The position numbers and the translations under genes are program-made. 64,000 nucleotides of DNA from Flavivirga sp. 57AJ16 (GTDB lineage: Bacteria; Bacteroidota; Bacteroidia; Flavobacteriales; Flavobacteriaceae). A model generated the notes under the pieces. It searched no databases, was not told the DNA's origin, and saw nothing but the letters and a program-made list of their open reading frames with translations. Positions 36,439 to 51,931 of the stretch are shown piece by piece (positions within the stretch are counted from its first letter, which is position 1; each line of letters begins with the position of its first letter). The DNA lies in the NCBI RefSeq assembly GCF_028736925.1, contig NZ_JAQZAT010000005.1, positions 1-64,000 on the forward strand, read 5' to 3'.

Positions 36439-36614
36439 AAAATTTTAAGTTAATACATGTCTTACAATATAGGAATTTTTAGTCAAAAATTCATTTCAAA
36501 AGATTAAATTTTATTGCTAAAAAAGGAGGCATGTTAATCTTTATAATTATGGTTTATAGTGACATATATGACTATTATTTTCATATCTCTTTAGGTAATT
36601 AAGTTAATAATGTT

Positions 36615-36622
36615 TATTTTTG
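36615..36622 (+). promoter_or_regulatory. -7 box of rpsA; start of a long structured leader
   Basis: TATTTTTG matches TAnnTTTG; transcription would start near 36628, giving a leader of about 160 bases before the rpsA ATG at 36789. Within it AGCGGA (36633-36638) can pair with TCCGCT (36693-36698), and a 42-codon ORF overlaps the rpsA start. Autogenous control of S1 synthesis would be in line with ribosomal protein practice, but is inferred. Confidence 0.5.
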
Positions 36623-36667
36623 CGCTCCTTTTAGCGGATTTTGAAAGATAAAAGGAATGAAACTATA

Positions 36668-36796
36668 ATGAAATTAACACTTCTGTGTGTTTTCCGCTTA
36701 ACATCTTCCAAAACATACAGAATACAAAAACGTCGTGTAATTAGGTTTCGGCAAAAGCGATATTTAATAACACTTCACAATTTTTTAAATGGCTGA
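36668..36796 (+). CDS. Possible 42-codon basic upstream ORF in the rpsA leader
   Basis: ATG at 36668 opens a frame of 42 codons with stop TGA at 36794-36796, inside the first codons of rpsA (ATGGCTGA). The peptide is strongly basic in the middle (YRIQKRRVIRFRQKRY). Overlap of a stop with the downstream start suggests translational coupling. It could be fortuitous, since a frame of this length is not rare in a short leader; there is no family match I can recognise. Confidence 0.3.
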   Translation: MKLTLLCVFRLTSSKTYRIQKRRVIRFRQKRYLITLHNFLNG

Positions 36797-38621
36797 AAAA
36801 GCAAAAAAAGCTGAAGTTGAAGTAACAGAGGCTCCAGAAGTAGAGGCTCCAGTAGTATCTGAGGCTAAAGCAAATCCAGAAAAATTCTTAAAAGAGTTCA
36901 ATTGGCACAATTATCAGGAAGGTATTGATGAGGTTGATGACAAACAACTTAAAGAATTTGAAAAATTAGTAGCAGAAAATTTCGTTGACACTCTTAACGA
37001 TGAAGTTGTTGAAGGTACAGTAGTTCACATTTCTGATAGAGATGCGATTATTGATATCAATGCAAAATCTGAAGGTGTTATTTCTTTAAACGAGTTCCGT
37101 TACAATCCTAACTTAGCAGTTGGTGATAAAGTAGAGGTATTGATCGATGTTCGTGAAGATGCAACAGGTCAATTGGTACTATCTCACAGAAAAGCACGTG
37201 TTATTAAAGCATGGGATCGTGTTAATGCGGCTCATGACACAGGTGAAATCGTTAATGGTTTTGTTAAATGTAGAACAAAAGGAGGTATGATTGTAGATGT
37301 TTTCGGAATTGAAGCATTCTTACCAGGTTCTCAAATTGATGTAAAACCAATTAGGGATTACGACCAGTACGTAAATAAAACTATGGAATTTAAAGTTGTT
37401 AAAATCAACCACGAATTCAAAAACGTAGTAGTATCCCATAAAGCTCTTATTGAAGCTGATATTGAAATACAGAAAAAAGAAATTATTGGTCAATTAGAAA
37501 AAGGTCAAGTATTAGAAGGTGTTGTTAAAAACATTACTTCATACGGTGTATTTATCGATCTTGGCGGTGTAGATGGTTTAGTTCATATCACAGATTTATC
37601 TTGGTCTAGAATTAATCATCCAAATGAAATTGTAGAATTGGACCAAAAACTTAATGTTGTAATACTTGATTTTGATGAAAACAAATCAAGAATCCAATTA
37701 GGATTAAAACAATTAAGCAAACATCCATGGGAAGCGCTTGCAGAAGAGGTGAAGGTAGGCGATAAAGTAAAAGGTAAAGTCGTTGTTATTGCAGATTACG
37801 GTGCATTTATTGAAGTAGCTGATGGCGTTGAAGGATTAATTCACGTATCTGAAATGTCATGGTCTACACATTTACGTTCAGCCCAAGATTTCGTTTCCGT
37901 TGGTGATGAGGTTGAAGCTGTTATCTTAACTCTTGATAGAGAAGATCGTAAAATGTCTCTTGGTATTAAGCAATTAACTCCAGATCCATGGACGGATATT
38001 ACTGGTAAATACCCGTTAGGTTCTAAGCACACAGGTGTTGTTCGTAACTTTACAAACTTTGGTGTATTTGTTGAACTAGAAGAAGGTATCGACGGATTGA
38101 TTTATATTTCGGACCTATCTTGGACTAAGAAAATTAAACATCCATCCGAGTTCTGTGCAGTAGGAGATAAGTTGGAAGTTATCGTATTGGAGTTAGATGT
38201 TGAAGGACGTAAATTGAGTTTAGGTCATAAACAAACAACAGATAACCCTTGGGATAAATATGAAACAGAATTCGCTTTAGAAACTGTTCATAATGCGACT
38301 ATTGCAGAAATAGTTGATAAAGGTGCGACTGTTGAGTTTAATGAAGACATCGTTGCATTTGTGCCTTCTCGTCATCTTGAAAAAGAAGATGGAAGTAAAC
38401 TTAAGAAAGGCGAAGCTGCAGAATTCAAGATCATAGAATTTAATAAAGAGTTTAAACGTGTTGTAGCGTCTCACACAGCTGTATTTAAAGCTGAAGAGGT
38501 TGCTAACGTTAAAGCGGCAGTTAAGAAAGCAGCTAGTGCAGCAGCAGAAGCAAAACCAACTTTAGGTGATGCCAATGATGCTTTACAAGCTCTTAAAGAT
38601 AAAATGGACGGAAAAGCATAA
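36789..38621 (+). CDS. rpsA: 30S ribosomal protein S1
   Basis: 610 residues with six S1 (OB-fold) repeats at roughly 55-120, 140-205, 230-300, 315-385, 400-470 and 490-555. The most regular copies read KGQVLEGVVKNITSYGVFID, GDKVKGKVVVIADYGAFIEV and GSKHTGVVRNFTNFGVFVEL. An acidic, alanine-rich N-terminus (PEVEAPVVSEAKA) and an Ala-rich tail follow family practice. It binds mRNA and helps initiation on weakly structured leaders. A terminator follows at 38673. Confidence 0.97.
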   Translation: MAEKAKKAEVEVTEAPEVEAPVVSEAKANPEKFLKEFNWHNYQEGIDEVDDKQLKEFEKLVAENFVDTLNDEVVEGTVVHISDRDAIIDINAKSEGVISLNEFRYNPNLAVGDKVEVLIDVREDATGQLVLSHRKARVIKAWDRVNAAHDTGEIVNGFVKCRTKGGMIVDVFGIEAFLPGSQIDVKPIRDYDQYVNKTMEFKVVKINHEFKNVVVSHKALIEADIEIQKKEIIGQLEKGQVLEGVVKNITSYGVFIDLGGVDGLVHITDLSWSRINHPNEIVELDQKLNVVILDFDENKSRIQLGLKQLSKHPWEALAEEVKVGDKVKGKVVVIADYGAFIEVADGVEGLIHVSEMSWSTHLRSAQDFVSVGDEVEAVILTLDREDRKMSLGIKQLTPDPWTDITGKYPLGSKHTGVVRNFTNFGVFVELEEGIDGLIYISDLSWTKKIKHPSEFCAVGDKLEVIVLELDVEGRKLSLGHKQTTDNPWDKYETEFALETVHNATIAEIVDKGATVEFNEDIVAFVPSRHLEKEDGSKLKKGEAAEFKIIEFNKEFKRVVASHTAVFKAEEVANVKAAVKKAASAAAEAKPTLGDANDALQALKDKMDGKA

Positions 38622-38672
38622 TTGAAAAATTAATTTTTCATTTCCGTGAAAATGGAAATCCATTATAGAATT

Positions 38673-38705
38673 AAAGCCTTCAAGAGATTGAAGGCTTTTT
38701 TGTTT
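38673..38705 (+). terminator. Rho-independent terminator of rpsA
   Basis: AAAGCCTTCA and TGAAGGCTTT pair around AGAGAT, followed by a T-run (TTTTTTTG). It begins about 50 bases after the stop codon. Confidence 0.85.
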
Positions 38706-38751
38706 TGGAATATATCGCTCTAAAAAAATGGTATAAAACAAAAAACAGTAA

Positions 38752-39369
38752 TTAGTTTGAAAAGAAACCATAACCTCTGGATTGTATTTTTTTAGAAATA
38801 GACTTTAACTCAATGACTTTAAGTATGCCTACCAATAAAAAAATGGTCATAGCTATATATGTATTTAAAAAAACTAAGTATAAACCAATAATATAAGTAA
38901 GCACACAGATAAAGTCTATAGAATTTCCGCTTAAGTAGCTTCCTACTTGAGAAGTTTTTCCATGAATTTTAACAATAGAACTTCTTAATAATAGAAATGA
39001 CAACTGACTCATAAGAAGTACAAAACCATACAAAACAACAGGAATAATGTCAGAATGATGATTGCCATCTCCTATCCAATCTGTCGTAAACGGAATTACA
39101 GATAGCCAAAATAGTAAGTGTAAATTCGTCCATAAAATTTGACCATTTATTTTTTTTGCTATTTTAAATAACTGATGATGGCTAACCCAATAGATGCTTA
39201 CGTATAAAAAACTTACCAAATAACTAATAAATGTAGGTAAGATTTCAAAAAGAGCTTCTATAGTGTATTCCTTAGGTGCTTCTAATTCTAAGACCATAAT
39301 GGTGATGATAATTGCAAGTACACCATCACTAAAAGCCTCTAATCTCTCCGATGTCATGTCGTTTTTCAT
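38752..39369 (-). CDS. TMEM175-like (DUF1211) potassium channel
   Basis: 205 residues with about six transmembrane helices. The TM1 signature RLEAFSDGVLAIIIT (Arg-x3-Phe-Ser-Asp) is intact, the hallmark of the TMEM175 family. Bacterial members form tetrameric potassium-permeable channels. The stop lies after a short gap from the rpsA terminator; the gene is convergent with rpsA. Whether it is selective for K+ cannot be seen from sequence. Confidence 0.85.
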   Translation of the reverse strand: MKNDMTSERLEAFSDGVLAIIITIMVLELEAPKEYTIEALFEILPTFISYLVSFLYVSIYWVSHHQLFKIAKKINGQILWTNLHLLFWLSVIPFTTDWIGDGNHHSDIIPVVLYGFVLLMSQLSFLLLRSSIVKIHGKTSQVGSYLSGNSIDFICVLTYIIGLYLVFLNTYIAMTIFLLVGILKVIELKSISKKIQSRGYGFFSN

Positions 39370-39414
39370 TATAAATATTCTAAACTTTTTTAGTGGGTCT
39401 TTATCTATTTATAA

Positions 39415-39948
39415 TTAGTTGTTTAACCTTACGTATTCAAACTGCAGTTTCATTTTTTTTCCCGAGATTGTAGCATATAGTTTATCGTTGCTCTTCCAAT
39501 ATTTTATTTCGTTGGGAGAATCAGACTTCCTGTTAGGGTAGTTCAAAGCTTTGTTTTCGCAAATAAACTCTTGAGTGTTATAGCTCGTCATTTTAAATGA
39601 AGATGGTGTGGTTTCACCTTTTAATTCAATTTTAAAATTCCAATTATTATTTGATTTTACAAGCCTAAATTTTTCTTCGTATATAGTATCTCCTTTTTGG
39701 GTTGTATAACTTTTTTGGGTTGTATAGCTAAATCCTACATATTCAGTGTTACTTTTTTTATCCCAATTTTCAAATGTTTCTTTCCCAATTTCCTCATTAC
39801 TCCTTTTCCACTTACCTAATAGCCAATCAAAATTATCCACTGTTTTAGTTGATTTAGTCGTGCTCTCATTTGTCTTTGATTTTTCATTTTTACCTTGATT
39901 ACAAGAGATAACTAAAGTTCCGATAAGTAAAATAAATATTTTTTTCAT
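39415..39948 (-). CDS. Lipoprotein of unknown function
   Basis: I place the start at the ATG at 39948 (MKKIFILLIGTLVISC), which gives a textbook lipoprotein signal with Cys16; the frame is open upstream to 39969. About 160 mature residues follow a Lys/Ser/Thr-rich linker: NFDWLLGKWKRSNEEIG, then a small beta-rich fold (YTTQKGDTIYEEKFRL, ELKGETTPSSFKM). The pattern WLLGKWKR is typical of lipocalin-like DUF6265/DUF1579 families, which start with xLxGxW. Function unknown. Confidence 0.7.
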   Translation of the reverse strand: MKKIFILLIGTLVISCNQGKNEKSKTNESTTKSTKTVDNFDWLLGKWKRSNEEIGKETFENWDKKSNTEYVGFSYTTQKSYTTQKGDTIYEEKFRLVKSNNNWNFKIELKGETTPSSFKMTSYNTQEFICENKALNYPNRKSDSPNEIKYWKSNDKLYATISGKKMKLQFEYVRLNN

Positions 39949-40097
39949 GATTTTTGTTTTTGCTTCCAATGAATGTTAAAGCTATGTTTTTGAATATTAT
40001 ATGATTGTATTTTTATTGATTAGCCTAAAAACTCAACAGGTTTTCCTGTATGGAGCCAATAAAAAATAAATGATAGCTAGTGTATGTTTAGATACTA

Positions 40098-40454
40098 ATA
40101 CCAAATAAACTTTAAAATGAAGCTAATAATTCATTTCTATCGCGCACATATTTCATAATAAAACTATGTGCTCAGCTTGACTGGGTATAGAACCGTAGCT
40201 TAGGCTCAATGTCATTAAGTTAAGGAAATTTGTTCTTTATTTGTCACATTGAGTACTTCGACTACGCTCAGTATAAACTAAAAGTCGAAATGCTAATAAA
40301 AACTAGAACTCCAATAGGTCTTCGACTGCGCTCAGACTGACATTACGGCCTTAACTTAATAACATTGAGCTTAGGCTATGCTTAGATTTTATTATTCATC
40401 TGTGCATGCTATATTCTAAATTATTTTACCCTCATTTTAAAGTTTATTTGGTAT
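40098..40454. mobile_element. 357-bp foldback element with 23-base inverted ends
   Basis: The ends starting ATACCAAATAAACTTTAA (40098-40120) and finishing AAGTTTATTTGGTAT (40432-40454) are perfect inverted repeats of 23 bases. The first seven bases ATACCAA are shared with the 163-bp family. The interior holds the 95-bp repeat (40287-40381, copy 2 of 123-217) and no ORF. It fills most of the 39949-40661 gap; the remaining parts show nothing. Confidence 0.8.
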
Positions 40455-40661
40455 AAGATTAACCAATGACATTTGTAAACAATGAAGCCATAGTTTTTCT
40501 ATGTATGTTAAATAACCGAATCATGAGAAACCTAGTAGATATTAACCATATAAAAAGCTTTTAAATTATGATTTATTTGTTAACCCCAAAACCATAATAA
40601 TAGCAATAATATTGGCAAGAATATCGTTACTTAAAGTTTCTCATTTTTCAGTTGATACTTT

Positions 40662-41063
40662 TTATTTATAATAATTTCTATCGTCTGGTGCTTCATTTAA
40701 AGTGAATTTATGCTGGTATTCGGGATCATATACATTCAATATAGTGTATGACCCAGAAGTTTTCCATGAACCTTCGTCCCAAGTACCATCATCATTAAAT
40801 TGTTTTTCTATTTTTTGTGATTGAATTAAAACACGTCCCCAAAACAGCCATTTCCCATCTACATTATGTACAAAATAAACTCTTACCGGATCTATTTGAA
40901 AAATACGGGCACTAGGTTTGTCTTTAAACTCAAATACCATTCCTTCTACATCTTTTAATGTAACAGGGTTCTTTTGGTGCTTTTCTAAGTCGAAAATATG
41001 AGCTGGAAATCCTTGCTCAGTTGTTAATTGTAATGTGTCATTAATCTCTACGAAACTTCCCAT
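40662..41063 (-). CDS. Unrecognised small protein, last gene of the accessory operon
   Basis: 133 residues, no signal peptide, beta-rich (RVYFVHNVDGKWLFWGRVLI, GSYTILNVYDPEYQHKFTL). I do not recognise the family. It follows the SRPBCC gene after 10 bases, so it belongs to the same transcript and probably the same pathway. The repeated hydrophobic/aromatic strands could form a small ligand-binding barrel; this is inference. Confidence 0.6.
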   Translation of the reverse strand: MGSFVEINDTLQLTTEQGFPAHIFDLEKHQKNPVTLKDVEGMVFEFKDKPSARIFQIDPVRVYFVHNVDGKWLFWGRVLIQSQKIEKQFNDDGTWDEGSWKTSGSYTILNVYDPEYQHKFTLNEAPDDRNYYK

Positions 41064-41073
41064 TTTTTTGTTT

Positions 41074-41523
41074 TTAATTATTAATTAATTTTCCTCCAAA
41101 CATTTTTACCAAATTTTCAAATCCATTCTTGTAAAATGGTGTTAAACCATCTTCAAATGAATAGAAACTTGAGGACCATTGTACTAAACAGCACTTATTC
41201 AACTCGGTTTCTATGACTTTAATCTGGGCATGATATTTTTGTGTAGTTTCACCCCATTCACCTTTATGCCATTTATATTTATAGCACATATTTTCATTAT
41301 CCATAAAAACTAATTCTTCCCATGTTGGAGATTGATTGGGAAAAGTTAATTTTCTGCGAATGTCCCTTTCTTCTCCTTGTTCTTCTGGAACTTCACAAAT
41401 TGGAATATCTGGATGCCATTGATCAATATTATAAAAGCCACCAACTATATGCCATATTTTAGCAGCAGAAGCATTTAGCTCACATACCACAACGACGCGC
41501 CAATTTTTATATTCGTTATTCAT
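41074..41523 (-). CDS. SRPBCC (START/polyketide cyclase-like) protein
   Basis: 149 residues. The opening WRVVVVCELNASAAKIWHIVGGFYNIDQWHP is the classical SRPBCC pattern (beta strand, then helix with WxxxxDFxxxxxWHP). Such proteins bind hydrophobic or aromatic small molecules and include polyketide cyclases. Located in the minus-strand operon between the DUF1566 gene and the terminal unknown (10-base gap). The ligand is unknown. Confidence 0.75.
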   Translation of the reverse strand: MNNEYKNWRVVVVCELNASAAKIWHIVGGFYNIDQWHPDIPICEVPEEQGEERDIRRKLTFPNQSPTWEELVFMDNENMCYKYKWHKGEWGETTQKYHAQIKVIETELNKCCLVQWSSSFYSFEDGLTPFYKNGFENLVKMFGGKLINN

Positions 41524-41613
41524 TTTGTTATAGATAATTTTCTTTTGTTTGAAATCTTAATTTTGATAATTCCTCGCTGCTATAAATATCTTATCTCGGA
41601 CATTATCCATTTG

Positions 41614-42180
41614 TTAAAAGGAACGAACAGCTCTAACACGGCATTCATGGTTCTTAAGGTCTGTGAATATGTTGCCTTCCAAAAAGTATTGTGCCCAAGC
41701 GAAGTTAAGATCTAGTTCTGTAGAGCTCCAATAGAAGTCGCTAGCAAAATTACCAACTTCTTTATTTGGAGGTTTAGCGCCACGCCCAATATTTGAAAAC
41801 ATGAGACTTAATTCTTTTTTTGATGGTAAATACCAATCTGTAAAACCATTTAGATTTAGATTATAACAAAGCTCTGCGGCATAAGGTTTAACCCCTTGGC
41901 TCACAATAATCTTTGCTGTATTGGCTTTTCCCGAACCAACAATACTGTCATATGATTTAGTATTAGTGAAGGCTCCATAATGCCATTGACTTCCTGTGCT
42001 CTGATCTTCTGGAGCGCATACTAATCCATGTTGTCCAGTTGAATCCAAATAGAATATAATGCCTCCCAATGCTGGCACATTTTGACCAATGGTATATTTA
42101 GGTATATTTTTGCTTTGTGCAAAGGTGTTTATAGTTAGTAAAACCAAAAAAGCGATTAAAATATTTTGTTTTTGTTTCAT
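41614..42180 (-). CDS. Secreted DUF1566 (Lcl-C-like) protein
   Basis: 188 residues with signal peptide (1-21, LLTINTFA-Q). Signatures of the DUF1566/Lcl C-terminal domain are visible: GGIIFYLDSTGQHGLV, GFTDWYLPSKKELSLMF, FYWSSTE and ECRVRAVRSF. Members are extracytoplasmic and often linked to adhesion or surface structures. It is the only exported product of this operon, which is odd because its neighbours look cytoplasmic. Confidence 0.8.
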   Translation of the reverse strand: MKQKQNILIAFLVLLTINTFAQSKNIPKYTIGQNVPALGGIIFYLDSTGQHGLVCAPEDQSTGSQWHYGAFTNTKSYDSIVGSGKANTAKIIVSQGVKPYAAELCYNLNLNGFTDWYLPSKKELSLMFSNIGRGAKPPNKEVGNFASDFYWSSTELDLNFAWAQYFLEGNIFTDLKNHECRVRAVRSF

Positions 42181-42239
42181 GGTATCAATTTTTTAATGTT
42201 GAAATTTTATTGTTGGTTTATTTATATGATTATCATTGT

Positions 42240-43376
42240 TTAAAGAATTCTAAAACAAGGGCCATAATGTAAGCCTTCTTTGTCGGGGATTGGGATTTGC
42301 ATAAGGGGTAGGGCGAATTGCTCTAATTTGAACATAACCTCAATCGCATTTACTAGAGCGGCTTGTCCTCTTCCATTTATGGCCCAGGCATCTTCTAAGA
42401 ACTTCAACAAGTCTGTGTATACTTCATCAAAACTGTTTACTAAATGCCAGACTTCGGGCGAAACATCTTCTTTTTTATAACCACCTTCAGGGATTCTCGC
42501 AACATGATATAGTTCTGGTCGGGGCATGGGGTCTTTGAAGTAATATTTGTCTCCTTCCTGCACAATTTTCTTTTTGTAATAGACTTCCCAAAAACGATAA
42601 AAATGGGCTAAATTATCTATTCCAGTACTGGCAGGCGTTACATTTTCAGAACCTTCTCCTTGTTCTTTAATCATATCGATAGCTTTAGAAACACTTTGGG
42701 CATCTGCCATTACCCACCAAGATAAGGGACCTGCTAATTGGCGCTCTACATTCATTTTTGGTTGTAGCTCTTGAAATAATTCGTTAATACGGTCATATAA
42801 TGCTCCTATCGTTGTATTGTGCTCGTAACTTTGATGGTGCTTAGTATCGCTAATCACCCCTTCTTTGTTACAAAGCCTTCCTATGGTTACAGGTTCTTTT
42901 GTTTCATAATCATATATTTTGGCAATTTCCTCTGGCAATTCTATCTCCATGAAATTCCTAAGTGAGCAATCATTTAATCCTTCTAAGTATAGAAAAAGAT
43001 CTGGGTGTACACCACCTGGAAGCCCGGAAGGATACTTTAGTCTGTTTTTCGTGTTGTATATTCTAGGTTCTCCACCAATTCCAACAATCATATTACAGAC
43101 CATTGCCATATGAAGCATTTCTTCCTGAAAAATATTACGAATTGATTTTGCTACTTCACATTTATTGTCCTTGATGGTCCACATGGCTTGTAGGTAAATG
43201 GGAATGGTTGCAAATTCTAATATGACAGCGCTATTTAATAATTCTTTTAAAACATGTAACTTGTCTTCATCTACATTACCTACAGATTTAGAATGTTGAA
43301 TAAGCTCTTTTACATTATTTAATTTTGTGGCTTTCTCCTGAAAGGAATTTTTGAATTGTATCTCTTTTGTTGACAT
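42240..43376 (-). CDS. Ferritin-like protein of the VioB/RebD domain type
   Basis: 378 residues. Helices carry the expected diiron-type ligands: E54 in NSAVILEFATIPIYLQAMW, EExxH (E85, E86, H89) in IFQEEMLHMAM, and a second pair around EQGEGS (238-243) and HFYRFWEVYY (H258). This matches the ferritin-like domain found in VioB and RebD (iminophenyl-pyruvate dimer synthase family) of violacein and rebeccamycin synthesis, here as a stand-alone protein without the rest of VioB. Its start overlaps the end of the GMC gene by 62 bases. A role in oxidative coupling or oxygen chemistry is inference. Confidence 0.75.
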   Translation of the reverse strand: MSTKEIQFKNSFQEKATKLNNVKELIQHSKSVGNVDEDKLHVLKELLNSAVILEFATIPIYLQAMWTIKDNKCEVAKSIRNIFQEEMLHMAMVCNMIVGIGGEPRIYNTKNRLKYPSGLPGGVHPDLFLYLEGLNDCSLRNFMEIELPEEIAKIYDYETKEPVTIGRLCNKEGVISDTKHHQSYEHNTTIGALYDRINELFQELQPKMNVERQLAGPLSWWVMADAQSVSKAIDMIKEQGEGSENVTPASTGIDNLAHFYRFWEVYYKKKIVQEGDKYYFKDPMPRPELYHVARIPEGGYKKEDVSPEVWHLVNSFDEVYTDLLKFLEDAWAINGRGQAALVNAIEVMFKLEQFALPLMQIPIPDKEGLHYGPCFRIL

Positions 43377-44994
43377 TTTTTGTTTTTGAATTAATTTTTG
43401 GTTGTTTGTTTATAAAGTGGTCTACTAATCTAAAAGCCATTGCCGTAAGTGTAAGTGTTGGGTTTACTGCGCTCCCTGTTGGAAAAGTAGCGTTGGAACA
43501 TACATATAGATTATCGGTATGATGTACCTTCATAAATTTATCGGTCACACTGTTTTCTGGACTTGTGCCCATACGGGCAGTTCCTGTAGTATGGTGTCCG
43601 CCTGGTTTGTCTATACGAGAGGATGTTATTTCCAATCCCATTTTTTCAATAATCTGTTCCAATAATTTTAAGCGATCATTGGCATTTTTCATTTCTTGTT
43701 CTGTTCTACTAAAATGCACTGTTGTTTGTGGTAAACCAAAACGATCCTTTCCTGGTTTTGCTTCTAATCTATTATTGAACTTTCCTTTTTCTTCTAAAAA
43801 AGCCTGAATATTAACAGTCATCTCACCATATACCATGGCATCGATTTCTTCCCTGGTCTTTCCATCAATCATTAATTGAGCAATATCTACATTGGGTGTT
43901 GTACGGTTTTTAAACATAAAAATCTTCCCTTTTTTTTGATGTTCTTTAGTGTTGTAGCTATGCGACATTAGCGTTGGAAAATCATACTCTTGGAACCATC
44001 CATTGGGGTTTGACGGTGCTTTACCAACGACATTTAACATGGAGTGTGATACCACAAAACGTCCAACTAAATCATAATCGTTACCTATGCCGTCTTTCCA
44101 GAATTCATTTTTAGAGGCTCTTAATAATTTAGGAACGTTGTAAGCCCCTGAAGCTAAAATGACAGTGTTACCTATAACCGTATGTTGTTTGCCACTTAAA
44201 TTATCTGTGTATGTTACAGATTCTATTTTAGATTTACTTGAAGTGTTTACTTGGTGTACTGGCGCGTTTATCCGAATTTCAAAATTAATGAACCGGGAGT
44301 CATTTTTTAAATCATCTAATACATATTGCGCATTGAATCGGCCTCCAATAGGGCAGTATTTACAGGTTCCTGTTGTCATACATTTTCGGTAACGAGCAAT
44401 CGGCATTTTGCCAGATTTTATTTTTTTTGTGACACCAGGGTTTATATCGCCATCTTGATATACAACATCTAATTGTTCCCAGGCCTTGATCATTTCGCCA
44501 TCTGCTGCAGTCCACTCGAAAGGTAGTGCTGGGTATGGTTTTGATCTAGGTACCCAGTTGGCACGGTCATCACCACAAACCGATAAAAATGACTCTGCGT
44601 CATTATAATATGTTTCTAAGTCTTCATAATTAATAGGCCAATCTGCACCTTCTCCCGTATTGGTAAAAAGGTTAAAGTCTTCTGGTCTAAAACGTAAGGA
44701 CCAAGCTCCCCAGTGCATGGTAGAACCTCCGTACGCTTTTACACGAACACCATCGGTTTGATAGTCGATATTTCCCGTTGAATCGGCTTCAAATTTTTGA
44801 TCGTATGTAAATGTATATGGTCTTTCCCCTCGGGTAATGTAATCCCACCAAAAACGTCTGTCTTTTGCTATAATTTCTGGCCCGGCTTCTAAAATTAAGA
44901 TAGCAGTATCATGTTTATGTTCTAATAACCCTTTAGCAAGAGTTGCCGCTGCAACTCCTCCTCCAACTATAACATAGTCAAATTGATTTTTCAT
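43315..44994 (-). CDS. GMC-family FAD oxidoreductase with a Cys cluster motif
   Basis: 559 residues. N-terminal FAD-binding GGGVAAATLA (11-20) and E36; GMC motif STMHWGAWSLR; C-terminal catalytic segment GGHHTTGTARMG and NPTLTLTAMAFRLVDHF. CMTTGTCKYC gives C205-x5-C211-x2-C214, at about the same place as the 3Fe-4S ligands of FAD-dependent glucose dehydrogenase catalytic subunits. It starts within the ATGA overlap of the small upstream gene and ends overlapping the ferritin-like gene. The substrate (alcohol, sugar or polyol, or an intermediate of this pathway) is unknown. No Tat or Sec signal. Confidence 0.82.
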   Translation of the reverse strand: MKNQFDYVIVGGGVAAATLAKGLLEHKHDTAILILEAGPEIIAKDRRFWWDYITRGERPYTFTYDQKFEADSTGNIDYQTDGVRVKAYGGSTMHWGAWSLRFRPEDFNLFTNTGEGADWPINYEDLETYYNDAESFLSVCGDDRANWVPRSKPYPALPFEWTAADGEMIKAWEQLDVVYQDGDINPGVTKKIKSGKMPIARYRKCMTTGTCKYCPIGGRFNAQYVLDDLKNDSRFINFEIRINAPVHQVNTSSKSKIESVTYTDNLSGKQHTVIGNTVILASGAYNVPKLLRASKNEFWKDGIGNDYDLVGRFVVSHSMLNVVGKAPSNPNGWFQEYDFPTLMSHSYNTKEHQKKGKIFMFKNRTTPNVDIAQLMIDGKTREEIDAMVYGEMTVNIQAFLEEKGKFNNRLEAKPGKDRFGLPQTTVHFSRTEQEMKNANDRLKLLEQIIEKMGLEITSSRIDKPGGHHTTGTARMGTSPENSVTDKFMKVHHTDNLYVCSNATFPTGSAVNPTLTLTAMAFRLVDHFINKQPKINSKTKNVNKRDTIQKFLSGESHKIK

Positions 44995-45530
44995 TCCTGG
45001 TCGTTTTTTAAATTAGTAGTATCTGGATCATAAGCACGTACTTTTGGAATACGATTGTAACGGGTTCCTCCCAAAAAACCATGATAATTCTTAGCTTGTT
45101 CTCCTCCGTACTTAGTACCCCAACTTTTAAACCCTCCAGCTGTGACTTGCATTCGGATAAACTCGTTAACAACATATATTTTACAATGTGCTAATCGAGT
45201 AGTTGGTGGCGCACTGTTATCTACACCGCTCTCAAAAAACAACTTTTTAAAAGCCTCTTCTTTACCATACAAGTCATATAATTCATTTAAAACATAAATA
45301 GCGTTAACATATTCACCTGAATAATTCGGGGCGTTTTCGGTTTTTGCTTTTATCATTTCGTACCAGGAACTTCTTTGGTTATTGGAATCGTAAATAGTGT
45401 TAGACCAATTTTTGCCAATAGCTTCAAAAATATCCCATAAAGCTTCTTTGTTTTGATATGTAAGATGTTGTCCTTCTGCAAAAATTAAACCAGCAGAAAG
45501 ATTCTCATTACAAACAGGACCTCCTATCAT
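44991..45530 (-). CDS. Small protein preceding the GMC oxidoreductase
   Basis: 179 residues, no signal. The 4-base ATGA overlap with the GMC gene implies coupled translation and probably a protein complex, as for the small subunits of GMC dehydrogenases. Its C-terminus (FKSWGTKYGGEQAKNYHGFL) recalls the end of gluconate 2-dehydrogenase subunit 3-type proteins, but the match is weak and there is no Tat leader. The N-terminal two-thirds is helical. Function inferred only from context. Confidence 0.6.
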   Translation of the reverse strand: MIGGPVCNENLSAGLIFAEGQHLTYQNKEALWDIFEAIGKNWSNTIYDSNNQRSSWYEMIKAKTENAPNYSGEYVNAIYVLNELYDLYGKEEAFKKLFFESGVDNSAPPTTRLAHCKIYVVNEFIRMQVTAGGFKSWGTKYGGEQAKNYHGFLGGTRYNRIPKVRAYDPDTTNLKNDQE

Positions 45531-45573
45531 AATGTGTATTATTTGGGTTATTGATTATGTTTTTTAGATGTGA

Positions 45574-47181
45574 TTAGCGAAATAATTCACGTTCCTTTAA
45601 GTGTTGGGTGCCTTCTTTAAAGTAGATATCTGTCCAAGAGTTATCTGTTGCCAAATAATCGCTAAAATAGACTTCGTCCAATCCTTTATTGGCCATTTGG
45701 TCACGAAATTCATAATGGTTAAAAAGACGAATGAATTCTGTAATATAAATATCTACAACAGCGGTATTGCCGCGAATAACAATCATGTTTTCATCATTAT
45801 TTTGCGTAGAAGCTTTAGAAAAGTTAGCCGATCCGGTAATAAGTATGGGGTCATCTGTTAAGGGGTCTATAAAAAGGTATTTTGTATGCAAATACTTAAC
45901 ATGATCATTTAAGCCGGTAAGGTGTTCGGCTTCCCAATTTTTTAAGCCTTCTTCTTTTATCTCTAGTTGATGGAGTATGGCACCTAAAGCAATTCTGTTG
46001 TTTGGTGTATCTTTAAAGTCATTAAATGTATTTCCTTCATGCTCTAATAAAATGTACCGAAGTGAATGGTCTTCTTTGCTCATGATATCCGCAAATTCTT
46101 GATTGACTCCAAAAGCAGCGGTAAATCCAATGGATTGTTTTGCGGTTTCAATTTGTTTTCCATACCAATCCAGAATACTTAAATCTGGCCTAGGGCTAAA
46201 AATAGGCGTAATTCCCTTTTGTAGGTTTCCATTAGGAGTTGGGGTGTGATTTTCGTTTAAAAGACGTATATCTTTCATTTGAGGGTCCCTGGAAAGTCGT
46301 GTCCAATATTCAAAATATGCTTGAGCAATAGCTTCATCTCTTACAATATGTCCAACATTAGATTGTCCAAAAATGCCCCCTTTTGTAAAATTGGTAGAGC
46401 CCATCCATACTTCTATAGGTTTTCCTTTATGGAGCAGCACGATATATTTATTGTGCTTTATAGATGAATTTGCTGTTCTGGGAATCATTAATTTTTCTAC
46501 ACCGGGTACATTGGTTATGGCTTTATCTGTATTTTTCCAAGGACCAACTTTTGACCTGTCGTATATAATTTTCACATCAGCACCTCTTTTGGAAGCATCA
46601 TATAAAGCTTGAATGACCGGTACATGGTCAAATTCATAAGCAGCAACACGCAAAGCATAATCCTTTCCTTTAGCTTCACTAATAAAAGCCAACATGGCTT
46701 CTTCTAAACCTCGAGATAGCCATTTGTAAGCTTCATTATTAGGAACTTTGTCCGGACTTTTATTGTCGAACTTTCTAACATAAGCTTGTCCAACAGTACC
46801 ACGATTAAAAAAGACACCATGTGTCCCTGAATTTGGATTTTCAGTAGTAATATTTACTTTAATTTCATGACCATTTTTTCTGTTTTCAGGAGTACCATAA
46901 ACTGGTGTTGCAGAATATTCGTAATTGGTATTTGGTTCTGCCGTATAATCACTCCAAAGAAAGGCTTGAATTATGGATGTATCATTTTTATAGCCATTTT
47001 CTTTAAATTCCTTAAACCCTTTTAGGTTGGTCGCTTTTCCAGTTTTGATTTCTTTACGTTTAAGCAAAAAACCCAATAATTCTTTTCTTGCAGTTTCATT
47101 TACATCTAAGCAAAGTACCACTACATGGGTTCCCGCTATAACATGCAATGAAACTCCATTTACTTGATTTCTTAATCTCAT
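45574..47181 (-). CDS. Phospholipase D-like protein with two HKD motifs
   Basis: 535 residues, no signal peptide. HKD motif 1: H243-x-K245 with GSTNFT (261-266). HKD motif 2: H432-x-K434 (LHTKYLFIDP) with GSANFS. The first lacks the usual Asp after the Lys. PLD-family enzymes cleave phosphodiesters or transfer phosphatidyl groups; others are nucleases or cardiolipin synthases. The N-terminal ~130 residues are an unrecognised beta-containing region. It is the first gene of the minus-strand operon, 43 bases before the next gene, so it may define the substrate. Confidence 0.78.
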   Translation of the reverse strand: MRLRNQVNGVSLHVIAGTHVVVLCLDVNETARKELLGFLLKRKEIKTGKATNLKGFKEFKENGYKNDTSIIQAFLWSDYTAEPNTNYEYSATPVYGTPENRKNGHEIKVNITTENPNSGTHGVFFNRGTVGQAYVRKFDNKSPDKVPNNEAYKWLSRGLEEAMLAFISEAKGKDYALRVAAYEFDHVPVIQALYDASKRGADVKIIYDRSKVGPWKNTDKAITNVPGVEKLMIPRTANSSIKHNKYIVLLHKGKPIEVWMGSTNFTKGGIFGQSNVGHIVRDEAIAQAYFEYWTRLSRDPQMKDIRLLNENHTPTPNGNLQKGITPIFSPRPDLSILDWYGKQIETAKQSIGFTAAFGVNQEFADIMSKEDHSLRYILLEHEGNTFNDFKDTPNNRIALGAILHQLEIKEEGLKNWEAEHLTGLNDHVKYLHTKYLFIDPLTDDPILITGSANFSKASTQNNDENMIVIRGNTAVVDIYITEFIRLFNHYEFRDQMANKGLDEVYFSDYLATDNSWTDIYFKEGTQHLKERELFR

Positions 47182-47615
47182 ATTTTCAATTTAGTAGGTT
47201 AAATATGTCTATGTTAGAGAGATATAATAAATTAATACGCGTTTATAGAAAAAAAGACAGTAATTTCTTTGTCTTATTGAGAGAAGTTTCTTCGCTAATT
47301 TAGATTTATTTTTTATAATAGCAAAAAAAATCCTACATATTTATAGGGTTGATCATTTTTAATTTTTCATTTTGGACTAAATTTTAAAAGAATAAGAAGC
47401 ATACAGTGTTTATAATCATGATGTTATATTTATCATAGCTTATAAACTAAAAGTTATGATGGGCATTAAAATAATTTGCAGATAGATGTAGTCTACAATT
47501 TAAAGCTTTCGAGACGTTGGGACTTTTTATTCAATAGTATTGGTTATAACTTTTATGTTTCTACTTCTAAAATTTTGCATTATCTTTGTACTCCAAACAC
47601 GTTTGGATAGTATAT
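47182..47615. other. Divergent intergenic region between the PLD-like gene and pyrR
   Basis: About 430 bp with promoters expected on both strands. Apart from the pyrR -7 box at 47581 I see no clear promoter for the accessory operon; no inverted repeat suggestive of an operator was found. Confidence 0.4.
47581..47588 (+). promoter_or_regulatory. -7 box of the pyrR operon
   Basis: TATCTTTG at 47581-47588 matches TAnnTTTG. It makes an in-frame ATG or other start at 47586 unlikely and supports the ATG at 47616. Confidence 0.6.
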
Positions 47616-48155
47616 ATGAGTCAAAAAGTTTTACTTAACGCAAAAGAGGTAAACATCATTCTTCATCGATTGGCTTGTCAACTCATTGAAAAACACACCG
47701 ACTTTTCTAATACCGTTTTAATTGGCTTACAGCCGCGCGGTGTATTTTTAGCTGACAGATTAACAAAAATATTAGAAGACCATTACAAGGTTAAAAACAT
47801 TCAATTAGGACATTTGGATATTACATTTTATAGAGATGATTTTCGTAGAGGAGAAAAGACACTTGAAGCTAATACCACTAAAATAAACTTTTTAGTTGAG
47901 GATAAAAACATTGTCTTTATTGATGATGTTTTGCATACTGGACGTAGCATTAGAGCAGCTTTAACAGCCATTCAATCTTTTGGAAGGCCAAACGAAATAG
48001 AACTATTAACGTTAATAGACAGGCGTTTTAGTAGGCATTTACCTATACAACCCGATTATAGAGGTAGGCAAGTGGATGTTATAAATAATGAAAAAGTGAA
48101 AGTAAACTGGAAAGAAAATGATAATGAAGATTCCGTTTATTTAATCGAAAAATAA
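47616..48155 (+). CDS. pyrR: Bifunctional pyr operon regulator / uracil phosphoribosyltransferase
   Basis: 179 residues from ATG 47616 (MSQKVLLNAKEV); a longer frame to 47586 overlaps the -7 box. The PRPP-binding motif VFIDDVLHTGRS lies at about 100-111 and the family motifs GLQPRGVFLADRL and YRDDFRRGE are intact. PyrR in Bacillus binds pyr mRNA attenuators in response to UMP and has weak UPRT activity. Here it heads an operon with pyrB, so a regulatory role is plausible. Confidence 0.9.
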   Translation: MSQKVLLNAKEVNIILHRLACQLIEKHTDFSNTVLIGLQPRGVFLADRLTKILEDHYKVKNIQLGHLDITFYRDDFRRGEKTLEANTTKINFLVEDKNIVFIDDVLHTGRSIRAALTAIQSFGRPNEIELLTLIDRRFSRHLPIQPDYRGRQVDVINNEKVKVNWKENDNEDSVYLIEK

Positions 48156-48162
48156 TAATTTT

Positions 48163-48195
48163 GTTAGAAGTTAGAAGTTAGAAGTTAGAAGTTAG
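48163..48195 (+). repeat. Heptamer repeat (GTTAGAA) in the pyrR-pyrB spacer
   Basis: Just under five copies of GTTAGAA (48163-48195), then a GGTTGGATCGAGTGCAGTCG stretch and a small hairpin GGCAACTTGAAATTGCC near 48238. It recalls the GAAGTTG/GAAGATT heptamers at 25704-26064. Confidence 0.75.
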
Positions 48196-48272
48196 GGGTT
48201 GGATCGAGTGCAGTCGAAAGGATTTTAAAAATAAAAAGGCAACTTGAAATTGCCACTGAATACTAAAAAAAT

Positions 48273-49202
48273 ATGAGCGAATTAAGTGTCAATCACTTAT
48301 TAGGAATAAAATATCTTAAAGAACAAGATATCCAACTTATTTTTGAAACAGCCGATCATTTTAAAGAAGTTATTAATAGACCAATAAAAAAAGTACCCTC
48401 ACTTAGGGATATAACCATTGCAAACCTTTTTTTTGAAAATTCAACCAGAACAAAACTATCATTCGAATTAGCCGAAAAACGACTTTCTGCAGATGTTATT
48501 AATTTTTCATCTGGGCAGTCTTCAGTTAAAAAAGGGGAGACCTTAATCGATACGGTTAATAATATCTTATCTATGAAAGTAGATATGGTTGTTATGAGAC
48601 ACCCAAATCCAGGGGCAGGAGTATTTTTATCAAAACATATTAATGCTAGCATTATAAATGCAGGAGATGGTGCCCATGAACATCCAACACAGGCACTTTT
48701 AGATTCGTATTCCATAAGAGAAAAATTAGGAAGTGTAAAAGGAAAGAAAGTCGTTATAGTGGGAGACATTCTTCATAGCCGTGTAGCACTTTCAAATATA
48801 TTTGCGCTGCAACTTCAAGGCGCGCAAGTTATGGTTTGTGGACCAAAAACCTTACTGCCAAAGTATATTGACAAACTTGGCGTAAAAGTAGAAACAGATT
48901 TACGTAAAGCACTTAATTGGTGCGATGTAGCAAATATGTTACGTGTACAAAATGAACGTATGGATATTAGCTATTTTCCATCAACAAGAGAATACACACA
49001 ACAATTTGGTGTTAATAAAGAATTACTAGATTCATTAGACAAAGAAATAACGATCATGCATCCGGGGCCTATTAATAGAGGTGTCGAGATTACCAGCGAT
49101 GTTGCCGATTCAAAACAATCTATTATCTTAGACCAAGTTCAAAATGGGGTAGCTATAAGAATGGCAGCTATTTATTTACTAGCATCAAAAATAAAACAGT
49201 AG
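48273..49202 (+). CDS. pyrB: Aspartate carbamoyltransferase catalytic subunit
   Basis: 309 residues. The carbamoyl-phosphate motif FFENSTRTKLSFE (STRT 57-60) and aspartate-binding HPTQALLD are intact, as is MHPGPINRGVEI. It makes N-carbamoyl-L-aspartate in pyrimidine synthesis. Sits 117 bases after pyrR and 3 bases before the next gene. No pyrI partner is visible; this fits the small PyrI-less type common in Bacteroidota with PyrR control. Confidence 0.97.
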   Translation: MSELSVNHLLGIKYLKEQDIQLIFETADHFKEVINRPIKKVPSLRDITIANLFFENSTRTKLSFELAEKRLSADVINFSSGQSSVKKGETLIDTVNNILSMKVDMVVMRHPNPGAGVFLSKHINASIINAGDGAHEHPTQALLDSYSIREKLGSVKGKKVVIVGDILHSRVALSNIFALQLQGAQVMVCGPKTLLPKYIDKLGVKVETDLRKALNWCDVANMLRVQNERMDISYFPSTREYTQQFGVNKELLDSLDKEITIMHPGPINRGVEITSDVADSKQSIILDQVQNGVAIRMAAIYLLASKIKQ

Positions 49203-49205
49203 ATT

Positions 49206-49538
49206 ATGATTTTAGATCAAAATGGGAACACCTCTATAATCACACAAGAAAAAGCCACGGTTATAGAATTAGTTAAAAAACTACAGGCTTTATATCCAAA
49301 ATTTAAAAACAATAATATTATAGTTGTCTTAACTGCTTTAAATAAACTGGGATTACAAGATATTATTGAGTTTCTTGAAATATCAAATACCCATCGTGCC
49401 TCAAAACAATCCTTTGTTGTTGTCTCAGATAACATTAGTTCAGAAAATATTCCAGACGAAATTGTAGTCGTACCAACTATTCAAGAGGCTTATGATATTA
49501 TTGAGATGGAAGAAATAGAGCGCGATTTAGAGTTTTAA
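49206..49538 (+). CDS. Conserved small protein between pyrB and DUF3291
   Basis: 110 residues. Starts 3 bases after pyrB; alternating hydrophobic strand-helix pattern (NNIIVVLTALNKLGLQDIIEFLEISNTH, SFVVVSDNISSENIPDEIVVV) resembles a STAS-like alpha/beta domain, but no signature is certain. The tight packing in the pyrB-rnz operon suggests a linked role, possibly regulation of RNase Z or of pyrimidine synthesis; that is inference. Confidence 0.7.
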   Translation: MILDQNGNTSIITQEKATVIELVKKLQALYPKFKNNNIIVVLTALNKLGLQDIIEFLEISNTHRASKQSFVVVSDNISSENIPDEIVVVPTIQEAYDIIEMEEIERDLEF

Positions 49539-49539
49539 T

Positions 49540-50010
49540 ATGAAGGAATTACATCTTGCACAGATAAATATTGCAAAAAGATTAGCTCCAATGGAGGATC
49601 CCATCATGAAAGATTTTGTAGACAACTTAGATAGAATTAATGCTTTAGCAGATGAAAGTGAAGGCTTCGTGTGGCGTTTAAAAGATGAAGATAAAGACCT
49701 AGCAGCCCAAGTATTCCAGGATGATACGTTACTTATTAATATGTCTGTATGGGAAAATTTGGAAACATTGTTTAATTATACCTATAAATCGGACCATATT
49801 GAAGTTTTTAAACGCAAAAAGGAATGGTTTAGTAAAATGAAGATGGTCCATATGGCATTTTGGTACGTTCCAAAAGGGTATGAGCCAACATTTCAAGGTG
49901 CTAAAAAGAGATTAGATTATATAAATAAACATGGAGATACCCCTTATGCTTTTGGCTTTAAAAGTAAATTCACAGCAATGGACTCATTAAATTACAAACC
50001 TCTTTTGTAA
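49540..50010 (+). CDS. DUF3291 protein
   Basis: 156 residues. MKELHLAQINIAKRLAPMED, then GFVWRLKD, NMSVWENLETLFNYTYKSDH and a WYVPKG segment match the DUF3291 family (dimeric alpha+beta barrel, similar to monooxygenase-like ABM folds). It starts 1 base after the preceding gene's stop. Function unproven in the family. Confidence 0.78.
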   Translation: MKELHLAQINIAKRLAPMEDPIMKDFVDNLDRINALADESEGFVWRLKDEDKDLAAQVFQDDTLLINMSVWENLETLFNYTYKSDHIEVFKRKKEWFSKMKMVHMAFWYVPKGYEPTFQGAKKRLDYINKHGDTPYAFGFKSKFTAMDSLNYKPLL

Positions 50011-50013
50011 TAT

Positions 50014-50919
50014 ATGAAGCTCAAGATTTTAGGCTGCTATAGTGCGACCCCAAGAACACTAAACAATACGACATCTCAAGTATTAGAGATTAATGGGCAT
50101 ATGTTTTTAATTGATTGCGGAGAAGGTACACAGGTACAACTTCGCAAACATAAAATAAAGTTTAATCGTATTAAGCATATATTTATCTCTCATTTACATG
50201 GTGATCATTTTTTTGGATTGGTTGGCCTAATATCAACTTTTAGATTGCTTACCAGGGAAACGGATTTACATATTTATGGACCTAAAGGCATTAAAGAAGT
50301 TGTGACGCTACAAATGAAATTAGCAGATTCCTGGACTAATTATAACCTTATATTTCATGAATTAACTTCAGACAAATCCGAATTGATTTTTGAAGATGAC
50401 AAGGTGCAAGTACATACCGTTCCATTAAATCATCGAGTTTATACGAATGGGTATTTGTTTAAAGAAAAAGAAGGCGACCGAAAGTTGGATATTAAGGCGG
50501 TTGAGGCTGCTAACATTAATGTTGCTTATTACCGAAAACTAACACAGGGTTTTGATGTTATAAATGAAAGTGGTAAGACTATAAAAAATAAATCGGTCAC
50601 TAAATCTGGCTCAAAACCAAAAAGCTATGCATTTTGTAGTGATACGATGTATAAAGAAGATATTGTATCCATTATTAAAAATGTAGAGGTGCTATATCAT
50701 GAATCCACTTTTTTGGAAAAACATGCCCATTTAGGCCTTAAAACTAAACATTCTACTGCAAAAGAAGCCGCTAGAATAGCAAAGTTGGCAAATGTAGGCA
50801 CATTGTTGCTTGGGCATTATTCAACGCGATACGATAACTTAAATGCTTTTAAAGAAGAAGCGCAAGAAGTTTTTGATAATGTAGAATTATGTGAAGATGG
50901 AAAAACTTTTGAGTTTTGA
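50014..50919 (+). CDS. rnz: Ribonuclease Z
   Basis: 301 residues. Metallo-beta-lactamase fold with the HxHxDH motif H60-L-H-G-D-H65 (SHLHGDHFFG) and later zinc ligands; YSATPRTLNNTTSQVL and LIDCGEGTQVQL are typical of the long RNase Z form with an exosite insert near 150-200. It trims tRNA 3' trailers. Four-base gap to the DUF3291 gene; end of the operon. Confidence 0.95.
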   Translation: MKLKILGCYSATPRTLNNTTSQVLEINGHMFLIDCGEGTQVQLRKHKIKFNRIKHIFISHLHGDHFFGLVGLISTFRLLTRETDLHIYGPKGIKEVVTLQMKLADSWTNYNLIFHELTSDKSELIFEDDKVQVHTVPLNHRVYTNGYLFKEKEGDRKLDIKAVEAANINVAYYRKLTQGFDVINESGKTIKNKSVTKSGSKPKSYAFCSDTMYKEDIVSIIKNVEVLYHESTFLEKHAHLGLKTKHSTAKEAARIAKLANVGTLLLGHYSTRYDNLNAFKEEAQEVFDNVELCEDGKTFEF

Positions 50920-50924
50920 TCATT

Positions 50925-50975
50925 CTATAGCCTCGTTCAAAGATATACAAGGATATATTTTACTTCTTGAAAATC
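50925..50975 (-). pseudogene. Decayed C-terminal copy of the gene at 51088-51537
   Basis: On the minus strand, about 50 bases translate to FSRSKIYPCISLNEAIE-stop, which aligns with FSKSKINPCTSLNEAIE of the intact gene just upstream (51088-51537). The homology stops there and the frame terminates at once. It is a remnant of a tandem duplicate. Confidence 0.55.
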
Positions 50976-51087
50976 TTATAAACATCTCTTTAGGTCGTAT
51001 TTTAGTCTTAAACTAATCTAAACCCCATACTAGCATATAATGCTGCGATTAAAAAATATAAAAAATAAGTTCTAGTATAGAATTATA

Positions 51088-51537
51088 TTAAGATGATTCT
51101 TTTTTGGGTTTTAATTTATTTCGTCCAAGGTTTACTTCTTTCAATTTCAGAATCCATTCTATAGCTTCATTTAAAGATGTACAAGGGTTGATTTTACTTT
51201 TGGAAAAGTGTTTTTCTAAACTAGCATTCATATACATCATATCGTTGTAACATACAATGGCACTCCTCATAATTATATTATACTGTTCGATTTTTATCCA
51301 ATTTTGTGGGTCATTTGAATAAGAATTGACCCTATTGGATATATAATCCAATTTAACGCCTTTACCATAAAACTCTATAATTTTATGGAACAGTATTTCA
51401 ATCTTGGGCCAATCAAAGTGCACACCGGTATGTAACTCTGCGATTAAAATCTTTTCACAGAAATAAAAATTTCCAAATGATGTTTCTAGTTTATAATGAT
51501 TTAGGGTTTTACTGTAGGTAGAATTTTCAAATTTCAT
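51088..51537 (-). CDS. Conserved hypothetical (SpoIIAA/STAS-like appearance)
   Basis: 149 residues, no signal peptide. Alternating strand/helix with HFDWPKIEILFHKIIEFYG and a C-terminal helix (SLNEAIEWILKLKEV). The fold impression is STAS-like; no confident family. It is flanked by a decayed C-terminal copy (50925-50975) and a copied start region (51838-51862), so the family was tandemly duplicated. Function unknown. Confidence 0.6.
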   Translation of the reverse strand: MKFENSTYSKTLNHYKLETSFGNFYFCEKILIAELHTGVHFDWPKIEILFHKIIEFYGKGVKLDYISNRVNSYSNDPQNWIKIEQYNIIMRSAIVCYNDMMYMNASLEKHFSKSKINPCTSLNEAIEWILKLKEVNLGRNKLKPKKESS

Positions 51538-51931
51538 AAAAAGGTATTTTAGGGCACTACTAATTTACAATGTTTCATAAAACTTTAATGGTAAAGCAAG
51601 CATTATTTTTTACTATTTTGTAATCTGCGGAAGAGCGTTTAAGCAACAATAGAAAGTGATACAAAAAAGGGCGTTGCTTTTAATAAAGTATTTGAAAGCC
51701 CAATGAAATTGTCGATGCTTTGTTTGATCATTATTCAATATATTCTAGTGTTTTAAAAGATTTACAGAAATGTTTAGAAAAGTAAAAAGACTAATTTTAA
51801 AGTAATTTTTTTTGAAATTACGGGATTGTAGCACCTAGAATCTTCAAATTTCATAAATTGGTATTTTATTTAAAATCATTACTTTTTTTGCTTTAATTAA
51901 AAGAAAGTTATTACGAAATAATATATGCCCT
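51538..51931. other. Gap with degenerate gene fragments
   Basis: 394 bp. Contains a plus-strand remnant (51643-51789) and a copy of the upstream neighbour's start (51838-51862; on the minus strand MKFEDSRCYNP). I see no intact gene. Confidence 0.5.
51643..51789 (+). pseudogene. Frameshifted 3' gene remnant
   Basis: Frame 1 reads ATIESDTKKGVAFNKVFES, then a one-base shift near 51697 restores PNEIVDALFDHYSIYSSVL and KDLQKCLEK-stop (51789). The continuity of protein-like sequence across the shift suggests a broken gene, truncated on the left by an in-frame stop at 51640. Family unknown. Confidence 0.3.

Follow-up and report, generated by a model that had tools for sequence, protein, structure and literature searches.

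The VioB-type ferritin-like family (PF12902) is known mainly from bis-indole pathways, in which the step of VioB or RebD follows that of a flavoprotein oxidase. Fructose dehydrogenase (FDH) and FAD-glucose dehydrogenase (FAD-GDH) are complexes (PDB 7w2j and 6a2u) in which a GMC-type catalytic subunit is accompanied by a small subunit and a triheme cytochrome. In a stretch of 64,000 nucleotides from Flavivirga sp. 57AJ16 (assembly GCF_028736925.1, contig NZ_JAQZAT010000005.1, positions 1 to 64,000; this whole stretch is referred to as the window), likenesses to both kinds of system were found within one block of minus-strand genes. There, the gene of a GMC oxidoreductase (GMC) lies between that of a small protein, here called SMALL, and that of a PF12902 ferritin-like protein, with a gene for a PLD-like phosphodiesterase (PLD) upstream.

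The locus resembles the FDH/FAD-GDH complexes in the family of the catalytic subunit, in its flavin-linking His, catalytic His/Asn and [3Fe-4S] Cys positions, and in the placement of a small protein gene directly upstream of the GMC gene, as in the known complex at locus L134. However, SMALL is not recognisably homologous to their small subunit and carries no twin-arginine translocation (Tat) motif, the triheme cytochrome was not found at the operon loci, where a ferritin-like partner stands instead, and the GMC cysteines are spaced x5/x2 rather than x5/x3, with Met in place of the neighbouring disulphide Cys213. With VioB and RebD the block shares a PF12902 domain bearing the same six invariant Glu/His residues, but here the domain stands alone, without the N-terminal part of approximately 560–590 aa, and is partnered by GMC instead of an amino-acid oxidase (VioA/RebO). 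Our tentative reading, which we consider possible though short of probable, is that of a putative, horizontally moving accessory operon in which a cytosolic flavo-Fe-S GMC would oxidise an alcohol together with SMALL, a diiron ferritin-like protein would replace the cytochrome, and a phosphodiesterase would feed the reaction. The block and its core features are as follows.

Approximately 38,707-47,546: accessory block, DNA that three sister species lack between rpsA and pyrR (flank comparison)
45574..47181, minus strand: PLD-like phosphodiesterase, 535 aa (Pfam PLDc_2, 2.6e-24)
44991..45530, minus strand: SMALL, 179 aa, without a recognised family; its gene immediately precedes that of GMC in the operon loci
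43315..44994, minus strand: GMC oxidoreductase, 559 aa, of the kind of fructose/FAD-glucose dehydrogenase large subunits (Pfam GMC_oxred_C, 5.9e-20)
44353..44382, minus strand: C-x5-C-x2-C-P motif of GMC, residues 205-214, counterpart of the [3Fe-4S] cysteines (alignment)
42240..43376, minus strand: ferritin-like protein, PF12902, 378 aa (Pfam, 1.8e-45)

The GMC enzyme, SMALL and the ferritin-like protein

The unit, its core composition, the predicted catalytic and cluster residues and six residues of metal-ligand type can be read directly from the sequences. The solved structures closest to GMC were the large subunits of fructose dehydrogenase and FAD-glucose dehydrogenase (E ~1e-44). At His468 and Asn511 the other GMC enzymes in the aligned set likewise have His and Asn, and we take these to be the exact positions of the catalytic pair. 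His94 aligned with the flavin-linking His105 of BcGDH and Cys205, Cys211 and Cys214 with its Cys212, Cys218 and Cys222, and the C-x5-C-x2-C-P motif was kept in 15/15 window-type GMC proteins aligned. The available part of PMC6719666 describes the flavin-linking His and the [3Fe-4S] ligand cysteines of BcGDH, as well as a catalytic His/Asn pair in GMC enzymes of the FAD-GDH kind. By alignment, GMC is an enzyme with the covalent-FAD His, the catalytic His/Asn and the three [3Fe-4S]-type cysteines of the FDH/FAD-GDH catalytic subunit.

No Pfam family matched SMALL. By a simple motif test that was positive for two known small subunits, the window's SMALL lacks a Tat motif, as do 8/8 SMALL proteins tried from other loci. 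Open reading frames (ORFs) with at least two CxxCH motifs were absent from 13 operon loci and from window positions 33000-53000, whereas the known complex at L134 shows three; ORFs with a single CxxCH occur in L057, L121, L129 and L130. Pairwise distances of GMC, SMALL and the ferritin-like protein correlated over 13 loci, with L052 left out (r 0.92-0.97, Mantel p 0.0001), and did so when L049-L051 were also removed (r 0.77-0.92, p 0.0001-0.0037). Homology of SMALL to dehydrogenase small subunits, suggested by gene position and a similar-looking C-terminal tail, received no hhalign support, and SMALL is retained as a positional partner.

Six residues of the ferritin-like protein (E54, E86, H89, E146, E241 and H258) were invariant in 36/36 PF12902 proteins compared. 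These four Glu and two His we take to represent the pattern of carboxylate-bridged diiron sites. The family aligns with a solved Caulobacter protein, 3hl1 (E 4.8e-23). Within the tree, the ferritin-like proteins of eleven operon loci described below formed one group (98/95) that adjoined the VioB-type domains and one Acaryochloris protein (97/95). Beside the core, no VioB N-terminal part was found in these eleven loci; a single match, in L121, lies approximately 7.5 kb away. The label ‘VioB type’ of the original prediction is thus apt for the domain and its place in the tree and does not extend to the N-terminal part of VioB. The approximately unbiased (AU) test rejected a tree that holds every GMC-linked ferritin-like protein in one group (p 5.6e-6; one of two such tests, the other p 3.5e-5, with groups named after a quick tree had been viewed), and therefore the pairing of ferritin-like protein and GMC arose at least twice. 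That the VioB-type family is tied to Fe-S GMC dehydrogenases in at least two lineages points to a testable general role. A further PF12902 lineage was seen beside a VioB-N-terminal-like protein of ~590 aa (L013 8470-11458, L014 8039-11003 and L044 6194-9254); in L044 this pair is followed by annotated ebo genes, a split VioB plus ebo set.

Recurrence of the core in other bacteria

A scan of 84,980 species, with one genome per species, returned at least 541 ferritin-like relatives, of which the best 80 loci were kept. Eleven of these 80, including the ten best-scoring (E <= 1e-65: L049-L057 and L121), had SMALL and GMC immediately ahead of the ferritin-like gene. The operon loci comprise, from Bacteroidota, L049, L050 and L052 (Tenacibaculum), L051 (Bizionia) and L053 (Pedobacter), and otherwise a proteobacterial metagenome-assembled genome (MAG; L054), an Acidobacteriia MAG (L055), Limibaculum (L056) and Planctomycetota (L057, L112 and L121). 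L049 is the contig of genus member G019 (also L012) and not an independent locus, and the L112 contig ends inside the ferritin-like gene. PLD occurs in 6/11 operon loci, the small protein U133 in 7/11 and a full-length SRPBCC protein in 6/11, with a short SRPBCC piece in L121; TMEM175 is also downstream in L050-L052, and DUF6265 lies upstream of PLD in L051. Where present, U133 copies from Bacteroidota, Pseudomonadota and Acidobacteriota were 58-93% identical.

Outside this set, the unit is rare in the genome samples searched. PF12902 relatives were found in 6/199 genomes of the family, close ones only in the source genome and G019, and searches with SMALL matched 2/395 genomes of the phylum (single-sequence query; the source genome and L015), 1/395 of the class (the source genome alone) and 1/392 of Planctomycetota (the seed alone). 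In L015 (7268-11045), a PA-IIL-type lectin gene comes after the SMALL-GMC pair, and the gene before the pair encodes a protein of 403 aa, one end of which weakly resembles ADP-ribosyltransferases (E 0.015). L101 showed a weak GMC match downstream, and L070 a separate, distant GMC-ferritin-like pair. On plasmids, small protein, GMC and ferritin-like genes stand in a row in Rhizobium (L129 and L167) and Methylorubrum (L130), followed in L130 by a PLD gene. The small proteins of L129 and L130 align with SMALL at 29%, and their GMC proteins stay with the window type in the tree, apart from the FDH-like and the Rhizobium/Gloeothece GMCs. No relative of U133 was found on plasmids. PF12902 relatives occur in 166 plasmid records, 114 of them Rhizobium, the surroundings having been viewed in two.

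A phage or virus origin of the block was rejected: viral contigs encoded no ferritin-like relative in a single-sequence query, which detects close relatives only, and PLD alone of the four block proteins tried matched PHROGs. Under GMC plus ferritin-like terms, no description of the gene set was found among the titles and abstract openings listed; in the available part of PMC13001252, GMC and ferritin-like genes carry distant locus numbers. Overall, the unit is conserved and looks functional.

Proposed mechanism and alternative explanations

The proposed sequence of events would begin with the PLD-like enzyme (elsewhere one of S1/P1 or EEP type), which would cut a phosphodiester and release a hydroxylated compound. 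In PLD, HNK at residue 243 and H-x-K-x4-D at residue 432 are recognisable, and both H-x-K were kept in nine aligned relatives. With SMALL as its dedicated small partner, GMC would oxidise the released alcohol in the cytosol; electrons would exit GMC through the [3Fe-4S] site to the diiron site of the ferritin-like protein, which would reduce or activate O2 and thereby assume the role that a membrane cytochrome c has in fructose dehydrogenase. The SRPBCC protein and U133 may bind or finish the product. Complex formation, the electron path, the metal, the substrate and the order of steps are what we infer here. If the electron path is right, the ferritin-like protein would be a soluble substitute for the cytochrome of enzymes engineered for glucose sensors. 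A bolder form of the proposal, which we regard as decidedly improbable, is a new class of two-component oxygen enzyme in which a soluble flavin/[3Fe-4S] alcohol dehydrogenase would power a diiron oxygenase with electrons from its own substrate, supplied by a phosphodiesterase and carried on a mobile cassette in at least four phyla.

Several observations weigh against the proposed operon function. Against both known small-subunit families, SMALL scored an hhalign probability of <1%, although those two families do not match each other either, and its AlphaFold model (mean predicted local distance difference test, pLDDT, 69.7; residues 133-179 <50) gave no Foldseek match at E <= 0.001 (best VIA Z 3.4). 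The missing neighbour cytochrome argues only weakly for a substitute, because two other pairs of GMC and Tat-bearing small subunit (Gluconate_2-dh3) in the source genome (L143, contig C1 33000-49000) lack an adjoining CxxCH ORF too, and because L129 encodes, immediately ahead of its small protein, a 439-aa product with a single CxxCH, which may be a one-haem partner at that locus. In L015, no ferritin-like gene was found beside the SMALL-GMC pair, and no phosphodiesterase relative was found in L056. The ferritin-like proteins of L129 and L130 fall among those of another GMC-linked lineage (100/96), and therefore the triad was not inherited intact everywhere. Finally, nucleases and peroxidases are among the varying partners, and such variety is not expected of one fixed pathway.

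One alternative is a mobile defence or weapon cassette, in which GMC would yield H2O2 or a toxic aldehyde for use by peroxidases while the PLD, S1/P1, EEP and Endonuclease_NS proteins act as nucleases, an explanation that we hold to be rather unlikely. Several nuclease-superfamily families do adjoin the core: the place of PLD upstream of SMALL is taken in L055 by an S1/P1 nuclease and in L121 by S1/P1 together with two EEP proteins, and two families are fused to trypsin-like domains, as a trypsin-EEP protein downstream in L057 and a trypsin-Endonuclease_NS protein, divergently oriented, in L112. Nuclease-type enzymes were counted within 5 kb in 10/11 operon loci versus 0/69 others (9/11 within 3 kb), a biased count, as most of the S1/P1, EEP and Endonuclease_NS matches in L055, L057, L112 and L121 come from queries that recovered the locus they were taken from; with PLD as the sole query the count was 6/11 (L049 being a sister species) versus 0/69. 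As a control, a Pfam analysis that covered 36 of the 69 other loci through 135 neighbour ORFs, chosen by a crude script, showed no nuclease among the 25 commonest of 132 families, those with two or fewer members being only partly covered. DyP_N (two members) was among these 25, and therefore DyP peroxidases occur beside other PF12902 genes too; DyP-type peroxidases in L050 and L052 and an animal-type haem peroxidase in L121 amount to 3/11 operon loci versus 3/69 others (p 0.03, with queries from these loci). The folds of PLD, S1/P1-like and EEP proteins include both nucleases and phospholipases, so these partners fit metabolic and conflict explanations alike; the Endonuclease_NS and trypsin fusions fit conflict better. 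The variable site of the block, the TIR, SIR2 and VapC genes near plasmid relatives, and the scores of PLD against DrmC models (best 1.2e-11) and a few other PADLOC models point the same way. Yet PLD alone of the seven proteins clearly matched PADLOC, the other six giving only two weak matches, both of the ferritin-like protein (0.0085 and 0.062), and no full known system, including DISARM, was present. Moreover, no immunity or regulator gene was identified, the divergent orientation of the L112 fusion gene does not favour this explanation, and the two S1/P1 enzymes look secreted from their N-termini as read, whereas the core looks cytosolic.

Detoxification or catabolism is unlikely in our estimate; the operon would then scavenge a sugar alcohol or a head group, and the ferritin-like protein would do no more than remove H2O2 or store iron for the Fe-S enzyme. 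Its case comes from distant GMC/ferritin-like/small-protein triads beside iolE and GH15 in Rhizobium (L047) and beside a glucan 1,4-alpha-glucosidase gene in Gloeothece (L048), and from sugar-type ORFs that we read from the sequence of L017. In L047, L048 and L017 the small protein is of 160 aa. In these triads and that of L016, the three genes are adjacent as in the window, but they belong to separate GMC and ferritin-like lineages with another small protein, and L016 and L017 have no PLD or U133 relative. Neither a sugar or inositol gene among the scanned window-type neighbours nor a transporter among the seven genes (Pfam) was found, and the invariance of the six-residue set across very different contexts suggests catalysis, not mere storage. 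A further alternative, in our view quite improbable, is VioB/RebD-like coupling, whereby the ferritin-like protein would oxidatively couple a reactive carbonyl made by GMC into a specialised metabolite, SRPBCC would shape the product and PLD would be incidental. This would suit the position of the operon group beside the VioB-type domains and an AMP-binding, PP-binding and thioesterase protein downstream of the Pedobacter copy. In fungi, according to the available part of PMC4417212, PF12902 genes lie near lodA/lodB-like oxidase and flavoprotein genes, although that system is a quinoprotein amino-acid oxidase rather than GMC. The absence of the VioB N-terminal part beside the core and of an amino-acid oxidase among the seven genes speaks against coupling, as does the finding of no scaffold enzyme in more than one copy among the scanned neighbours.

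The accessory block in Flavivirga

The remaining genes of the block lie downstream of the core.

41614..42180, minus strand: DUF1566/Lcl_C protein, 188 aa, variable member (Pfam Lcl_C, 1.8e-13)
41074..41523, minus strand: SRPBCC protein (Polyketide_cyc2), 149 aa, frequent but non-universal member (Pfam, 2.2e-13)
40662..41063, minus strand: U133, 133 aa, no known family
39415..39969, minus strand: DUF6265-like gene, lipoprotein-like N-terminus; real start perhaps 39948
38752..39369, minus strand: TMEM175-family channel-like protein, downstream end of block

The seven genes from PLD to U133 had been proposed as one operon, and all seven ORFs were located as claimed, with a 4-base SMALL/GMC overlap (44991-44994), a 62-base GMC/ferritin-like overlap (43315-43376) and a 10-base gap between SRPBCC and U133; the remaining gaps measure 43, 59 and 90 bases. 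The length of the GMC/ferritin-like overlap differs among copies because the GMC C-terminus differs. Pfam bears out the proposed PLD-like, GMC, ferritin-like, DUF1566 and SRPBCC families and leaves the small and last proteins without one, the sole match of U133 being far under the cut-off. The original prediction also saw no polyketide synthase (PKS), non-ribosomal peptide synthetase (NRPS) or VioA, and by Pfam and NCBIfam none of the seven is a PKS, an NRPS or an amino-acid oxidase. Conservation of gene order outside this strain, which the original prediction set as a test, was borne out: 6/12 species of the genus keep the order, and copies of the core turn up in further phyla.

Some GMC gene was present in 12/12 genus genomes, and this GMC, at >=89% identity, in 6/12 (source genome counted). 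All six carriers share the order PLD-SMALL-GMC-ferritin-like-U133-TMEM175, with TMEM175 split in L012, while DUF1566 was found in 3/6, DUF6265 in 3/6 and intact SRPBCC in 4/6, with a 30-residue remnant in L038 and none in L012. The proposed single unit therefore stands where it is built on the GMC/ferritin-like pair, and not as a constant set of seven; DUF1566 and SRPBCC are dispensable members, and DUF6265 and TMEM175, two further minus-strand genes, go with the block. Purifying selection acts on each of the seven genes (median ratio of non-synonymous to synonymous substitution rates, dN/dS, 0.035-0.123; n=4 sequences for SRPBCC, n=3 for DUF1566 and n=6 for the others).

In the window the unit is an accessory block at the rpsA-pyrR site. 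It lies between pyrR and rpsA in the window, L012, L038 and L039; in L040, pyrR was seen and the contig ends before rpsA could be reached. Neither flank gene was seen in G584 (L041), and therefore the block sits elsewhere there. Three genus genomes without the unit (L150, L151 and L154) have rpsA and pyrR ~143-150 bases apart, an empty site, and the other three have ~1.1, 3.9 and 2.2 kb of other DNA in between. Homology to the empty site of L150 ends at ~38706 on the left and restarts at ~47547 on the right.

Rfam gave no match in window positions 36000-50000, and promoter-like and terminator-like sites did not exceed counts in shuffled sequence. The DUF1566 protein has a hydrophobic, signal-peptide-like N-terminal stretch. 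A model of U133 (pLDDT 68.6) had no Foldseek match at E <= 0.001; its N-terminus bears a putative likeness to that of a DUF952 protein in L057. Between U133 and DUF6265 (window 40085-40465) lie nested inverted repeats (32 nt, 91%; 35 nt, 86%), an element with 91 matching pieces genome-wide that looks like a miniature inverted-repeat transposable element or a palindromic-repeat family.

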